Source of the DNA: Nitrospirota bacterium
GTDB lineage: Bacteria; Nitrospirota; Thermodesulfovibrionia; Thermodesulfovibrionales; JdFR-86
Direction of reading: 5' to 3'
DNA: 47,161 bases
Assembly (NCBI GenBank): GCA_016207905.1
Contig: JACQZC010000057.1
Location: 1-47,161, forward strand
Position 1 is the first letter of the stretch. The number at the start of each line of letters is the position of its first letter. The position numbers were made by a program, and so were the translations under genes. Positions 35,589-41,805 of this stretch are shown here, one piece after another. The notes under the pieces are model-generated. The model searched no databases. It was not told where the DNA came from and saw nothing but the letters and a program-made list of their open reading frames with translations.

Positions 35589-35694
35589 CGTATAAAAAAT
35601 CGTTGCCATCTCCTTTTCCACCTTTTCTTGTCATTGCGAGTCCATCCTTTAAAGCTTTTGTCAAGTAAAAGATAGCCTCCTGTTGAAAAATTAC

Positions 35695-36129
35695 ATGAAA
35701 ACGAATATAGTATTTCCTATGTGGCGGGAAAAGGACATAGTAAGGGCTTTTAAGAAAGGCGACACTATCATCGGGGAAGGCGACCCAGGTAGGGAGATGT
35801 TCATAATCCAGTCTGGCTCTGTTGATGTTTTTAAGGGAGAAGGGGAAGGTAGAATTCATCTTGCCACACTTCAAAGGGGTGATTTCTTTGGGGAGATGTC
35901 CATACTTGAGAATGTCAGAAGGTCTGCCACTGTCATAGCACGAGAGGAAACAAGCCTTCTGGTGCTGAATGCAGGGAATTTCCTTGTAAAGATAAGGAAA
36001 GACCCAACATTTGCCTTTAGCTTAATGCAGAGGATGAGTAATAGAATCAGGGTTCTCAATGAAAAACTCTCAGCACAGAAGGATGCCGAATCAGCAAAGA
36101 CAGTGGAAATGGCAGAGTATTTAAAATAA
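35695..36129 (+). CDS. stand-alone cyclic-nucleotide-binding domain protein
   Basis: A 144-residue cytoplasmic protein made of a single cNMP-binding domain. The jelly roll reads FKKGDTIIGEGDPGREMFIIQSGSVDVFKGE, then LATLQRGDFFGEMSILENVRRSATVIA, which contains the phosphate-binding cassette Gly-Glu and Arg-Ser-Ala residues typical of cAMP-type sites. The C-terminal helix MQRMSNRIRVLNEKL matches the C helix, but no helix-turn-helix follows, so it is not a CRP-type DNA binder. It is the first gene of the operon ending with an RND transporter that carries a second such domain. The start is ATG 35695 or the in-frame TTG 35683; neither has a good ribosome binding site. Confidence 0.82.
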   Translation: MKTNIVFPMWREKDIVRAFKKGDTIIGEGDPGREMFIIQSGSVDVFKGEGEGRIHLATLQRGDFFGEMSILENVRRSATVIAREETSLLVLNAGNFLVKIRKDPTFAFSLMQRMSNRIRVLNEKLSAQKDAESAKTVEMAEYLK

Positions 36130-36150
36130 AAAATTATTTTCGGGGTGCAG

Positions 36151-36927
36151 ATGGGCAGATTTAATACCTTAGTAGAGGAAGAGCATCTTTATATCATCTC
36201 GGACCTTCATTTAGGGAATCCCTCTTTTATTCAGGGAGGAGGATTTAGCTCTTTCCTCAAGCACATCTCAGGTAAGGATGTAAACCTCTGCATCAACGGA
36301 GATGGGCTTGACCTTCTTCAGATATCGTTTCCGAAATTAATGCTCGTTTTCCCTGATGTTCTGGAGGCACTACGGGGCTTTTTAAACTCAGGCAGTAACA
36401 AAATCTACTACATAGTTGGAAACCACGACATATACCTCGAGGGATTTCTCGAGGACTCCGGGATTTTTAATGTAGTGCCATTCCTCGATGTTGTCTCAGG
36501 TAAAAGGCGCATCCATATAGAGCATGGACACCTCTATGACCGCTTCTTTCTTTATCATCCAGAGATTTACATACAGCTGACGAAGTTTTTCGGACTCCTT
36601 TTAAGGGCAGCACCAGGGCTTTTCCGTGTCTGGGATAAGGCACTTCTTGCCTTTTCCTCCATTTTAGCAAAAAAGCAGGATGTTGGCTTGTTTGACAGGC
36701 GCTCCTCTATCGAGGCCGCAGAGGATATTCTCAAAAGAGGCTTTGATGTGGTTGTCTTTGGTCATACCCACAGGTTTGGCATATACGATTCAGGACAAAA
36801 TAGAAAGTACTTCAATACAGGAAGCTGGATTGGCAAGATAGGCCATTATGTAGAGATTGATAGCAACCTCAATCAGGAGAAAATACCCAAGAAGGCACGC
36901 AGAAAAAAGGCATTAAAGACTTCTTAA
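36151..36927 (+). CDS. LpxH-like metallophosphoesterase
   Basis: A 258-residue calcineurin-type phosphoesterase. Metal-binding motifs are in order: SDLHLG (DxH), INGDGLDLL (GDxxD), IVGNHDIYL (GNHD), HIEHGHLYDRF and VVFGHTHRFGIYD (GHTH), then YFNTGSWIG. This order resembles UDP-2,3-diacylglucosamine pyrophosphatase (LpxH/LpxH2), a lipid A enzyme, but other substrates including lipids or cyclic nucleotides are possible. The C terminus is a basic tail (KKARRKKALKTS). The start is ATG 36151 or GTG 36145, with CGGGGTG just upstream. In that tail the heptamer A_AAA_AAG (36903-36909) lies in the zero frame, and a -1 shift there leads into the beta-barrel frame. Confidence 0.8.
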   Translation: MGRFNTLVEEEHLYIISDLHLGNPSFIQGGGFSSFLKHISGKDVNLCINGDGLDLLQISFPKLMLVFPDVLEALRGFLNSGSNKIYYIVGNHDIYLEGFLEDSGIFNVVPFLDVVSGKRRIHIEHGHLYDRFFLYHPEIYIQLTKFFGLLLRAAPGLFRVWDKALLAFSSILAKKQDVGLFDRRSSIEAAEDILKRGFDVVVFGHTHRFGIYDSGQNRKYFNTGSWIGKIGHYVEIDSNLNQEKIPKKARRKKALKTS

Positions 36928-38153
36928 AGGAAAATATAAAAGGCACTGCCGAATACAAATTCTTTGGGCAATTCCATAAGGTCAGACAGGACAAAAAACA
37001 ATATCTCCATGAGTTGCTCCTCAATTTAGACCTGAAATACCCTTTGGGCAAGGGGAAAAGCATTGTTTTAAAGCCTTTATTCAGAGGAGACAACAGGCAC
37101 TTTACACAGGGCGTGGTTGACACGGCAAAGGAAGCAGATGAGCGAAGATATTATGTGAATTTCAAAGAGGCATATATAGCATTTCGTGGTGAGCAGGCAG
37201 ATTTTTATTTAGGCAAAAGGCTTTACTCCTGGGGCAAGGCAGAGGGCTTTAATCCCACTGACAACATAAACCCTTATGACTTTATGGATTTTCTTGACAG
37301 GGAAAAGCTTGGAGTCTTCTCAGCCTCGGTTGAATATGCCATTGGAGAGTCCACTGTCGAGGTTGTGCTGATACCTCTTTTCACTCCGTCACGACTGCCT
37401 GAGCAAAACAACAGGTGGGCAGGCAATGTAGAAGACCAGGTGACCATCACAACAGTGTCCCAGCTTCCTCAGGCAGATTTGAGGGGAAGGGAGGTTCCAG
37501 CCAACACCCTCGAAAACACTCAGATGGCAGGAAGGCTTAAGACAACCATTTCAGGCTGGGACTTTGCATTGAGCATCTACCATGGCATGGACAGCATACC
37601 TGCGGCAGAAGAAGAGGTCATAGCAGGGACAACATACTATACCCCCAAATTCAACCCCATAAACGAGTACGGCTTTGCAACTGCCACGACATTTGACAAG
37701 TTAGAGCTTCATGCAGAGGTATCCCACAGGGACACACTTCACGGAAACGACGACGATTTCATTGCCTATATAGCAGGTGGAAGTTATAGCTGGGATGAGC
37801 TTGGAGAGCTTATCGAGAAACTGAGCCTTTATTTCGAGTACGCAGGCGAAGGGATAACACTTGGAAAGAGAAATCCAAATCGGCATAGCTCATCCTCCTA
37901 CAGCAGGCCATTCAAAAACTCTGTGCTTGGAAGTCTGGTCTTTAAATTTAATGAGGATGCCGAGTTTCAGCTCGGAGGCTCATATAACATCTCCGACGAT
38001 GACTACTACATACAGCCAAAGGCAACTTACAAGTTTTCAGACAAGCTTAAGTTGAAGGCTGGCTTTGACATCCTCAGGGGCGACAGGGAGACATTCTGGG
38101 GCAAGTGGAGGAAAAACGACCGCTTCTTTGCGCATCTTATATGGCATTTTTAA
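36858..38153 (+). pseudogene. DUF1302-like outer-membrane beta-barrel protein lacking start and signal peptide
   Basis: The conserved frame opens after a TAG near 36855 and runs to 38153. Homologous-looking sequence begins before any usable start: GTAEYKFFGQFHKVRQDKKQ, then DLKYPLGKGKSIVLKPLFRG. The first ATG/GTG/TTG-type start is TTG 37014, which would yield 379 residues beginning in the middle of a strand and with no signal peptide. Later sequence has the DUF1302 hallmark FYLGKRLYSWGKAEGFNPTD and barrel strands ending ...FFAHLIWHF. An outer-membrane protein without a signal peptide should not be exported, so it is either truncated, frameshifted, or made as a -1 frameshift fusion from the upstream phosphoesterase. 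Confidence 0.7.
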
Positions 38154-38198
38154 GACTGTTGATATATAATCTTTAGAATTTCCAATGAGGGGGTTTGT

Positions 38199-39002
38199 AT
38201 GAAAAAGCCATCAGGAAGTCTGTTCATGGGTTTATGGATATTTGCCTTTTCTTTAGCCATTGTCTTAGCACCTACAGTTTCTTCCGCAATGACTGGAAAA
38301 GAGATTATGGAAAAGCAGAAACAGATCCAGCAGGCAAACGACGAAAAAGAGGTCCTTTCCATGAAGCTCATAGACAAAAAAGGCAATGTAAAGGAAAGAG
38401 AGGTTGTCAGATATTCCATGAAGACTGCCTCTACAGTCAACAAGATAATGATGATATTCAACAAGCCCTCTGACATCAAAGGCACAGGGCTTCTTACATG
38501 GGAGCAAAAAGGCAGAGATGATGACCAGTGGCTTTACCTTCCAGAGCTTGGAAAGGAAAAACGCATTGCCTCTGGAGGTAAAAAGAACAAGTTTATGGGC
38601 ACTGACTTTGCCTTCGAGGACCTCCGTCCCGAAAACCTCTCGACACATGAGTATAACCTTACTGCAAGCGAGACAATCGAAGGAAAGGACTGCTATGTAA
38701 TAGAGGCTATCCCAATAGGGAAGGAAGAAAAGGAAAGCGGATACTCAAAGCGAAAGTTCTGGATCAGAAAGGACATCTTCTTTACGGTAAAGGTAGAATA
38801 TTATGACAAAAAAGGAAAACATATAAAGACACAGGAAAACAAAAACCCGAAGAATGTCAGTGGCTCTGTCTGGAGAAGCGATGAGATAGTAATGGAAGAC
38901 CATGAGGAAAACCACAAGACTACATTAGCTGTCCAGTCAAGGGAAGTAAACAAAGGACTGAAGGAAGACTTCTTCAGCCTAAGACAACTGATGTCGCAAT
39001 AG
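38199..39002 (+). CDS. outer-membrane lipoprotein-sorting (LolA-like) protein
   Basis: A 267-residue secreted protein of the LolA_like family (PF17131 type). A signal peptide at about residues 1-30 (LWIFAFSLAIVLAPTVSSA) is followed by the typical beta-sandwich: SMKLIDKKGNVKEREVVRYS, MMIFNKPSDIKGTGLLTWEQ, DDQWLYLPELGKEKRIASGGKKNKFMGTDFAFEDL, GKDCYVIEAIP, and FWIRKDIFFTVKVEYYDKKGK. These periplasmic proteins bind a hydrophobic ligand and are nearly always encoded beside MMPL/RND transporters and a beta-barrel, as here. It likely carries lipid or lipoprotein between the RND pump and the outer membrane. Good AGGGGG-like ribosome binding site. Confidence 0.85.
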   Translation: MKKPSGSLFMGLWIFAFSLAIVLAPTVSSAMTGKEIMEKQKQIQQANDEKEVLSMKLIDKKGNVKEREVVRYSMKTASTVNKIMMIFNKPSDIKGTGLLTWEQKGRDDDQWLYLPELGKEKRIASGGKKNKFMGTDFAFEDLRPENLSTHEYNLTASETIEGKDCYVIEAIPIGKEEKESGYSKRKFWIRKDIFFTVKVEYYDKKGKHIKTQENKNPKNVSGSVWRSDEIVMEDHEENHKTTLAVQSREVNKGLKEDFFSLRQLMSQ

Positions 39003-39075
39003 GTAGAGGCTATAGCGGATTTTATTTAACTCAACAATGAATGCAGGGGCAATGCCCCTCTAAGGAGGAGTCCTT

Positions 39076-41805
39076 ATGACAAAATTCATGAACTGGGTAG
39101 TCAGGCATCCAATCATATCGGTAGTTGTCCTTTTCATAGTCCTTGCAGTTCTTTCAGTGAAGATTCTGACTATCGAGATAGATTCCTCTGCAGAGGGCCT
39201 TATGGCAGAGGGAGACCCAGAAAGACTTTATTACGAAAGCGTTAAGGAAAAGTTCGGCTCTGACACACTTACAGTAATCGTGGTAGAAGGGAAAAACGGC
39301 AAGGATGTCTTTGAACAAGAGACCCTGAGCCTCGTTGAAACCCTTACCGATAAGGTAGTAGAAATAGACGGCGTAACGAACATCCAGAGCCTGACAACAG
39401 TCAATAAGATTAAAGGCGAAGGAGATTTCCTCAATACAGATAAATTAATCGAAGAGATTCCCTCTGACCCCGAGGGACTCCGTCAAATCAAGGAAGATGC
39501 CCAAAGAAACGATGTATTCCTTAAAAACCTTATATCGAAAGACTCAAAGATTACAGGCATCAATATATTTACCGAGAGAAAGCCTGATGACAAAAAGTTC
39601 AATGAGAGATTCTCTGCAGAGCTTGATAGGCTTATTTCCAAGCACAAAGGAGACTACAGGGTCTATCAGATAGGAAACCCCATGACAAAGGTCTCTTTCA
39701 GCTCCAATATACAGAAAGACCAGCAGACACTCATCCCGTGGTCAGTAGCATTCCTTATATTTCTTTTACTTATAACCCTCAGGAGCTCGACTGCGGCAAT
39801 GCTTCCAATCATTACGGGCGGATTGAGCATCCTTGCCACATTGGGGTTTATGACCCTCATAGGGTATCCGATAAATGTAATCACTGCCATTGTCCCAGCG
39901 CTCCTTATAGCAATAGGCTGTACAGAGGACATTCACATGATATCGGAGTACTTTACAGGCTTAAGGGAAGGAAAAAACAAAAAGGATGCAATCATATACA
40001 TGGCAACGAAGTGCGGGCTTCCAATACTTCTTACCTCTGCTACGACTGTTTTAGGATTTAGCTCTCTGGCATTCAACAAGATTACGATTCTCAAGCAGTT
40101 TGGAATCGTTGCCTCGTTTGGACTTTCGATTAACTTCATTATCTCCATTATTGTGATCCCGAGTTTTCTTCAGTTTATGCCTGTGCCCAAGGTATTTAAG
40201 AAAGAAAAACCTAAGAAATCAAGAAGGTATATAGATGCATTTACAGACTGGTTCATCAGGCTTAATACGAAACACAGGCGCCTTATCGTTGTCGGGATTT
40301 TGGCAATAGTTGCCGTTGCCGTAGCAGGCTGGTTCAGGCTTAAGGTTAATACGGATTTTATCAGCTATTTTAAGGAGGGCTCTTTAATAAGACAGCGGGT
40401 TGATAGCATCCATAATGACCTCTCAGGGGCATTGAGCTTTAACATCGTTGTGGAGACAGGAAAAGAAGATGCAGTCAAAGACCCATCTGTCCTTAAGCAG
40501 ATTGCCGGGCTTCAGGAGTATATGGATGGCATGGGAAAATTCGACAAAAGCATTTCTTTGTCAGACTACATAAGGGTGATGAACAAGGAGATGAATGCCG
40601 GGAAAAAGGAGATGCAGGTCATCCCTGATTCAAAAAACCTTATTGCCCAGTACCTGCTCCTTATGGCAGAGGAAGATACAAAAAGCTATGTGGATTCGGA
40701 TTATTCGACTGCAAATATTCTTGTCAGGCACAATATCACAAGCTCTGCGGAACTTACAAAGTATATAGATGAGATTCAAGGGTACATTGCAAAGAACTTC
40801 TCTAAGGACCTGTCGGTGAGGTTTACAGGAGAAGGGGTTTTGATTAACAATGCGGCAGACTATATGGCAAAAGGTCAGGCGACATCTCTCATCTCTTCGC
40901 TCTTAACTATCTTTGCAATCATGGCATTCCTGTTCATGTCAATAAGGGCAGGGGTAATCTCTATGATTCCCAATATGGTGCCTATAATACTTAATTTTGG
41001 AATTATGGGCTGGTTCGGGATTCCCCTTAATACAGGCACATGCATGGTAGCCGCAATTGCATTGGGCATTGCGGTCGATGATACAACCCATTTCATGGCA
41101 CGGTATTACGGAGAGCTGAAAAAAACGAATGACCAGAAACAGGCAATACTTGATTCCTTAAGAGGCGAAGGAGAGCCTGTTCTTTTGTCCTCAATAGCAC
41201 TTGCAGCAGGCTTTGCAATCTTAGGGCTTTCGGAGTTTAATCCAACGATTCAGTTCGGGCTTCTTTCAGCAGTGGTAATGCTTATCGGATATGTATCGGA
41301 GATGCTCATTACCCCGCTTCTTCTTGAGTCGGTCCAGCTTGTAACGCTCTGGGATTTCCTCCGCGTGAAGCTTAAAAAAGACATCACAAAGATTAGCCCG
41401 ATATTTGTAAATCTAAGTAAGTCCGAGGCTAAAAAGGTTATCCTTCTTGGAAGCATCCGCTCTGCATCCAATGGGGAATACATTATCCGTCAGGGAGAGG
41501 CAGGCACAGAGATGTATATGATTATAACAGGCTCTGTTAAGGCAACTGTCGAGGCCGAAGGCAAAGGCAAAGAGCTTGGAACACTCAAGGAAGGAGATAT
41601 TGTAGGAGAAATGGCATTCGTAGGTGGTGGCACACGCTCTGCCAATATCATTTCGCTTGACGAAACAGAGCTTTTAAAGATTGACTATAAGTCCCTCGAA
41701 AGGGTAAGAAAAAGATTCCCTAAGATAGCTGCAAAGCTCTTTATGAACATCTCACATATCCTTAGCGACAGGTTGAGGGCACAGAATGTTTTAGGGACAG
41801 GTTAG
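39076..41805 (+). CDS. RND/MMPL transporter fused to a cyclic-nucleotide-binding domain
   Basis: A 909-residue inner-membrane pump. It has the RND/MMPL plan: one N-terminal helix (VRHPIISVVVLFIVLAVLSV), a periplasmic loop, a helix block about 220-370 (ITAIVPALLIAIGCTEDIHMISEY, with the acidic GCTEDIHM motif), a second loop and a second block about 610-760 with AIALGIAVDDTTHFMARYYGE (GIAVDDTTH). Residues from about 765 to the end form a cytoplasmic cNMP domain: YIIRQGEAGTEMYMIITGSV, GDIVGEMAFVGGGTRSANI (Gly-Glu and Arg-Ser-Ala cassette). This suggests gating of transport by a cyclic nucleotide, which is inference. It closes the operon; an AAGGAGG site precedes it. Confidence 0.9.
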   Translation: MTKFMNWVVRHPIISVVVLFIVLAVLSVKILTIEIDSSAEGLMAEGDPERLYYESVKEKFGSDTLTVIVVEGKNGKDVFEQETLSLVETLTDKVVEIDGVTNIQSLTTVNKIKGEGDFLNTDKLIEEIPSDPEGLRQIKEDAQRNDVFLKNLISKDSKITGINIFTERKPDDKKFNERFSAELDRLISKHKGDYRVYQIGNPMTKVSFSSNIQKDQQTLIPWSVAFLIFLLLITLRSSTAAMLPIITGGLSILATLGFMTLIGYPINVITAIVPALLIAIGCTEDIHMISEYFTGLREGKNKKDAIIYMATKCGLPILLTSATTVLGFSSLAFNKITILKQFGIVASFGLSINFIISIIVIPSFLQFMPVPKVFKKEKPKKSRRYIDAFTDWFIRLNTKHRRLIVVGILAIVAVAVAGWFRLKVNTDFISYFKEGSLIRQRVDSIHNDLSGALSFNIVVETGKEDAVKDPSVLKQIAGLQEYMDGMGKFDKSISLSDYIRVMNKEMNAGKKEMQVIPDSKNLIAQYLLLMAEEDTKSYVDSDYSTANILVRHNITSSAELTKYIDEIQGYIAKNFSKDLSVRFTGEGVLINNAADYMAKGQATSLISSLLTIFAIMAFLFMSIRAGVISMIPNMVPIILNFGIMGWFGIPLNTGTCMVAAIALGIAVDDTTHFMARYYGELKKTNDQKQAILDSLRGEGEPVLLSSIALAAGFAILGLSEFNPTIQFGLLSAVVMLIGYVSEMLITPLLLESVQLVTLWDFLRVKLKKDITKISPIFVNLSKSEAKKVILLGSIRSASNGEYIIRQGEAGTEMYMIITGSVKATVEAEGKGKELGTLKEGDIVGEMAFVGGGTRSANIISLDETELLKIDYKSLERVRKRFPKIAAKLFMNISHILSDRLRAQNVLGTG

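Follow-up and report, generated by a model that had tools for sequence, protein, structure and literature searches.

RND pumps are usually thought to be controlled through gene expression. A characterized relative of the locus described here is the AmeABCD system of Castellaniella defragrans, which exports monoterpenes by means of a HAE3 pump together with a barrel of the DUF1302 type and a LolA-superfamily protein assigned to DUF1329 (PMC6394551). Uptake is also a possible direction, since long-chain alkane induces a marine MMPL/LolA-like protein 42-fold (PMC6304351). The MMPL fold can be acted on from the cytosol, as MmpL5 is reported to bind an acyl carrier protein that is cytosolic and separate from the pump (PMC12346298). 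An open-access literature search, which cannot prove that none was ever described, returned no fusion of an MMPL pump to a cyclic-nucleotide-binding (cNMP) domain, and the only transporter–kinase fusions found in the open-access literature were of the SLC5 type.

The DNA analyzed here (the window) is a stretch of 47,161 nucleotides from a Nitrospirota genome assembled to 2.03 Mb in 98 contigs. ORF calls and Pfam matches placed five co-directional frames on the forward strand at 35683–41805, as had been claimed from the sequence alone, in the order cNMP domain, metallophosphoesterase, barrel, LolA-like protein and MMPL–cNMP pump. The intergenic gaps, counted where both gene ends are clear, are about 21, 45 and 73 nt. 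No AmeC-like second periplasmic partner is encoded between or adjoining the five frames, and scans for promoters and terminators gave counts near chance. In the relative G036 the five genes follow one another as they do in the window, with 59–73% identity per protein, and all five frames are conserved against it, with pN (0.16–0.24) far below pS. Since synonymous change between the two is saturated, the gene order has been kept over a long divergence, and the five-gene set, though rare, is old.

The first gene (35683–36129, 148 aa from TTG 35683) encodes a stand-alone cNMP-binding protein, 61% identical to its G036 ortholog. Its sole Pfam match is PF00027 (E 7.5e-24, 84 bits against a cut-off of 27.5), in agreement with the earlier claim that it has no helix-turn-helix. 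Such a protein is not in itself unusual, because the window genome holds seven PF00027 matches, two of them at this locus, and several of the other five also come without a DNA-binding domain. The second gene (36145–36927) encodes a calcineurin-like metallophosphoesterase (PF00149, E 5.9e-10). The likeliest starts of the two genes are ATG 35695 and ATG 36151, both near the point where the G036 alignment begins. The sequence-only reading had called the phosphoesterase LpxH-like; the metallophosphoesterase domain is indeed present, but the label is loose, as the protein is distant from LpxH. Its nearest solved relative is an LpxH (E 2.4e-4), and its scores lie so far under the NCBIfam cut-offs (PRK05340, 33.2 against 134 bits; TIGR01854, 21 against 190 bits) that identity with LpxH was ruled out. 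No CpdA model matched either, though a CpdA-type cAMP phosphodiesterase may still be an alternative. The stand-alone protein is perhaps a second cAMP reader, and its neighbor perhaps a phosphate-ester hydrolase.

The barrel frame (36864–38153, forward strand) comprises 429 codons with a terminal aromatic residue, Phe, and is assembled without a start codon or signal peptide. The TTG at 37014 is a mechanically assigned start that does not mark the true N-terminus: the reading frame extends back to 36864, with no ATG, GTG or TTG up to 37014, and the residues encoded in this interval align with the mature N-terminus of the G036 barrel. In G036, the barrel gene has its own start, opens with a signal peptide (MERSEHVRHHKNFSVALIFSILFFISAICAYAQ) and overlaps the phosphoesterase gene where the latter ends; about 100 nt present at this junction are missing from the window. 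Export of the barrel would be impossible in its assembled form. Apart from this the frame is intact and under purifying selection relative to G036 (pN 0.24, pS 0.76), so the loss is either a deletion that happened recently or a fault of assembly. In the window, the barrel gene is joined out of frame to the end of the phosphoesterase gene (36864–36930). A slippery heptamer, A_AAA_AAG (36903–36909), lies in the phosphoesterase frame just before the junction, where a −1 shift would enter the barrel frame. We rejected a programmed frameshift of this kind, since the joined protein would lack a signal peptide and in G036 the two genes are separate; loss or mis-assembly of the ~100 nt is likelier, and the heptamer is probably incidental. 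A search for a second intact barrel copy in the genome found only a 24%-identical paralog.

The predicted structure of the window's barrel protein (mean pLDDT 68, moderate confidence) matches porins and AlgE in fold, consistent with an outer-membrane barrel, but the proposed likeness to DUF1302 is weak: the window protein has no Pfam hit, and 1 of 11 family members matches DUF1302 (PF06980). The next gene (38199–39002, forward strand) encodes a 267-aa periplasmic protein with a signal peptide and matches to LolA_like PF17131 (E 8.6e-58) and DUF1329 (E 2.9e-10), so that its description as LolA-like stands. Its solved relatives are 9tp6, 3bk5 and 4z48.

The last gene (39076–41805, forward strand) encodes, in one frame of 909 aa, an MMPL/HAE3-type RND transporter that ends in a second cNMP domain, as had been read from the sequence. 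MMPL (PF03176) matches in two stretches (E 2.4e-43, 148.8 bits against a cut-off of 20.5) and is followed at residues 795–879 (41458–41712) by PF00027 (E 1.9e-20, 73.1 bits against 27.5). The HAE3 model TIGR00921 scores 250.5 bits against a cut-off of 351.9, which puts the pump close to but outside the curated HAE3 subfamily; the HpnN model TIGR03480 (108 against 752 bits) and the MmpL3 model both score far under their cut-offs. The acidic pair in TM10, Asp668-Asp669, is invariant in one alignment, and almost every pump in the sample has it. The acidic residue of TM4 is absent from many plain pumps too, so its loss was rejected as a mark of sensor-only proteins. In the predicted structure (model m3061b96e5458, mean pLDDT 80, moderate confidence), the core matches MmpL4/5, HpnN and NPC1, and a beta-roll and C-helix are placed after the last TM helix; the cNMP binding loop is the least confident part (pLDDT <50). 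The cNMP profile matches the corresponding domains of PKA, PKG, SthK and CRP. The G036 fusion (L029, contig C52, 5162–5812) has its MMPL region split over two contigs, with residues ~689–844 absent in frame. This gap of about 156 codons, near a contig end, covers the last TM helices and the first half of the cNMP domain, and is probably an assembly fault.

Both cNMP domains of the locus keep the Gly-Glu and Arg-Ser-Ala residues that the sequence-only reading had ascribed to them. By alignment, these lie at 35890–35895 and 35920–35928 in the stand-alone protein and at 41605–41610 (Gly844-Glu845) and 41635–41643 (Arg854-Ser855-Ala856) in the pump. Across 38 fusion cNMP domains drawn from three phyla, Gly-Glu and Arg are present in 38/38, the position following Arg holds Ser or Thr in 35 and the one after it Ala in 37; one relative, L144, has lost the cassette. 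The window genome also encodes three class III cyclases (L119, L120 and L121, on contigs C36, C77 and C85), whose active-site Lys and Asp we take, by inspection, to be adenine-type and whose Asn and Arg we take to be catalytic. These cyclases are membrane-anchored, with long N-terminal extracytoplasmic regions. The conserved cassette and the three adenylate-type cyclases together make cAMP the likeliest ligand; the fusion domain plausibly binds cAMP, and cGMP may be an alternative. A different view is that the C-terminal domain is structural, serves oligomerization or has a ligand that is not a cyclic nucleotide, and that the pump is a constitutive, AmeABCD-like exporter. Plain pumps of the same fold do work without a cNMP domain (AmeABCD, PMC6394551), a plain MMPL paralog is encoded in the window genome itself, and the residue after the cassette Arg varies between Ser, Thr and Gly. 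However, invariance of Gly-Glu and Arg over three phyla exceeds structural need, and cyclases are present, and we consider this view distinctly unlikely.

MMPL–cNMP fusions occur in 10 of 396 genomes of the window's phylum, Nitrospirota; eight of these are complete or almost so, one is divided between contigs and one has a broken frame. LolA and barrel genes adjoin the fusion in all ten, and also in several genomes of the phylum of a Desulfosarcina MAG, where at least 24 of 395 genomes carry verified cNMP-bearing fusions (a lower bound, owing to the E-value limit). Among 27 distinct fusions with a cNMP domain only, 15 lie next to both a LolA and a barrel gene and 2 next to LolA only; about one third of these loci are without LolA and barrel neighbors. 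The Verrucomicrobiota MAG OFTM167 (G401) has three separate MMPL–cNMP fusions (L062, L163 and L164), one adjoining a LolA gene and one an ABC1/UbiB-type kinase gene. On contig C12 of G381 (L115/L038), an MMPL–cNMP protein is encoded in two overlapping frames near residue 700, a frame break or assembly error.

The core of the locus is LolA, barrel and MMPL–cNMP, and it recurs across Nitrospirota and the Desulfosarcina-MAG phylum. A plain version of this grouping recurs beside many MMPL genes, with AmeABCD as its characterized relative, so that its earlier description as an envelope-transport grouping is well founded; the fusion of a nucleotide sensor to the pump is likewise real and recurrent, with the binding residues kept. 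The same cannot be said of the five genes as a set. That they are rarely together is a condition which the sequence-only reading had itself named as refuting it, and by it the five-gene operon largely fails, while the three-gene core with its fused sensor stands: the stand-alone cNMP and phosphoesterase genes join a fusion operon only in the window and G036. Orthologs of the phosphoesterase were found in these 2 of the 396 Nitrospirota genomes, and among the fusion loci examined the gene stands beside no other fusion. Being limited to two genomes, the pair is not part of the core but a local addition. This distribution, the barrel without signal peptide here, the truncated MMPL in G036 and the five other cNMP domains in the genome would all fit mostly chance adjacency around an ordinary transporter in a decaying locus. 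The five-gene order kept in G036 over a long divergence and the wide recurrence of the three-gene core argue against this, and we regard it as very improbable.

A tree of 132 MMPL cores, built by a quick method (LG+G4, no bootstrap), contains a branch (SH-aLRT 99) that separates every fusion from 88 plain pumps; the only member of the fusion clade scored as having no C-terminal module is the broken-frame copy. The C-termini in this clade are cNMP, cNMP followed by GGDEF (PF00990), or HisKA with HATPase_c, the last two being carried by one subclade. The MMPL–histidine kinase (MMPL-HK) fusions (L129, L130, L141, L142, L143 and L057) have complete HisKA and HATPase_c domains and an intact H-box in 6/6 cases; the GGDEF motif is degenerate in 11/11. 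By starred branches, at least three changes on the tree are required to account for the kinase label alone, which indicates repeated exchange of the C-terminal module. Four genomes of the Desulfosarcina-MAG phylum have pumps almost identical to Nitrospirota families f2 and f12, which suggests horizontal transfer. The fusions belong to one apparently undescribed branch of pumps with different signaling parts on the same end, and they suggest a pump that is switched by, or reports to, an intracellular signal.

Of 17 distinct loci with cNMP-GGDEF or MMPL-HK genes, 11 have these genes beside or inside [NiFe]-hydrogenase gene clusters (survey labels L055, L057, L129, L130, L134–L138, L165, L166 and L178–L181); a locus whose flanks were short and gave no match was counted as negative. 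The neighbors match PF00374, PF14720, PF01750 and HypF, covering structural genes and maturation protease. Hydrogenase neighbors were absent from the cNMP-only loci (about 20) and from the plain-pump loci of at least 7 kb (39). All of these numbers rest on searches that started from fusion proteins, so the sample is not a random one. Two genomes have the MMPL-HK gene immediately upstream of a second pair of small and large hydrogenase subunits, and in both a histidine kinase gene follows, with PAS domains confirmed in L166. This arrangement presumably resembles that of H2-sensing regulatory hydrogenases.

Such sisters make signaling from pump to cell a serious alternative to the gating that had been proposed from the sequence, as they show an output module in the place of the cNMP domain, and the kinase-bearing members would report inward if their kinases are active. 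The transporter core would then sense cargo, membrane state or proton-motive force, and the fusion would be a receptor or pump-receptor in which the cyclic nucleotide tunes the response or is sensed jointly. The replacement of cNMP by intact HisKA and HATPase_c within one clade, with several exchanges on the tree, and the hydrogenase neighborhoods fit this explanation, and the SLC5–kinase fusions CbrA and CrbS offer a precedent (PMC5715377). Against it, the cNMP-only members keep transport partners (17/27 with LolA), whereas the kinase and GGDEF members do not keep LolA and barrel. To our knowledge, moreover, a cNMP domain is the input module in every well-studied case. We judge this explanation to be possible though rather unlikely.

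The fold matches of the pump core, the solved relatives of the LolA-like protein and the likeness to AmeABCD favor cAMP-controlled transport of hydrophobic cargo, to which we give an even chance. The MMPL/HAE3-type pump would be driven by protons and would move a hydrophobic cargo, probably a lipid or similar, together with the LolA-like periplasmic carrier and the outer-membrane barrel. The cell's own class III cyclases would make cAMP, and the cytosolic C-terminal cNMP domain would control the pump allosterically according to its level. It counts against this reading that both five-gene loci are damaged as assembled, as do the kinase-bearing sisters, the third or so of cNMP-only loci without LolA and barrel neighbors, the lost cassette of L144 and the low confidence of the modeled binding loop. 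A clade whose cytosolic signaling domains are conserved and interchangeable would mean that a second messenger directly controls envelope transport of lipids or hydrophobes, or that pumps double as sensors. More broadly, it is a shade short of an even bet that this RND/MMPL branch evolved as signal-coupled pumps, with cNMP, pseudo-GGDEF and kinase modules exchanged on the cytosolic end; its members would be the first second-messenger-gated RND pumps, and the hydrogenase-linked ones would be RND-based sensors comparable to CbrA and CrbS. Because some members carry a histidine kinase, the coupling of pump and signal could be tested by phosphorylation as well as by ligand binding.

Compared with known systems, the locus is most like AmeABCD in joining, within a single cassette, a HAE3/MMPL pump, an outer-membrane barrel (of the DUF1302 family in AmeABCD) and a periplasmic protein of the LolA superfamily with a DUF1329 match. 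It differs in that AmeD has 787 aa, with no C-terminal cNMP domain described (PMC6394551), against 909 aa with such a domain in the window pump; in addition, the locus has no counterpart of AmeC, the fourth component of AmeABCD, and the barrel of the locus is only weakly DUF1302-like. The hopanoid transporter HpnN and mycobacterial MmpL3/4/5 share the RND fold, by structure comparison, and carry lipid or hydrophobic cargo of the kind predicted for the window pump, but unlike it they are without a cNMP domain. SthK resembles the pump in placing a cytosolic cNMP domain C-terminal to a membrane domain, and both SthK and CRP-type profiles match; yet SthK is an ion channel whereas the pump is of a proton-coupled transporter type, and unlike CRP it has no DNA-binding domain. 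CbrA and CrbS, in which an SLC5 transporter core is joined to a histidine kinase as cytosolic signaling module, parallel the MMPL-HK sisters, but belong to an unrelated transporter superfamily, and the window protein carries a cNMP domain and no kinase.
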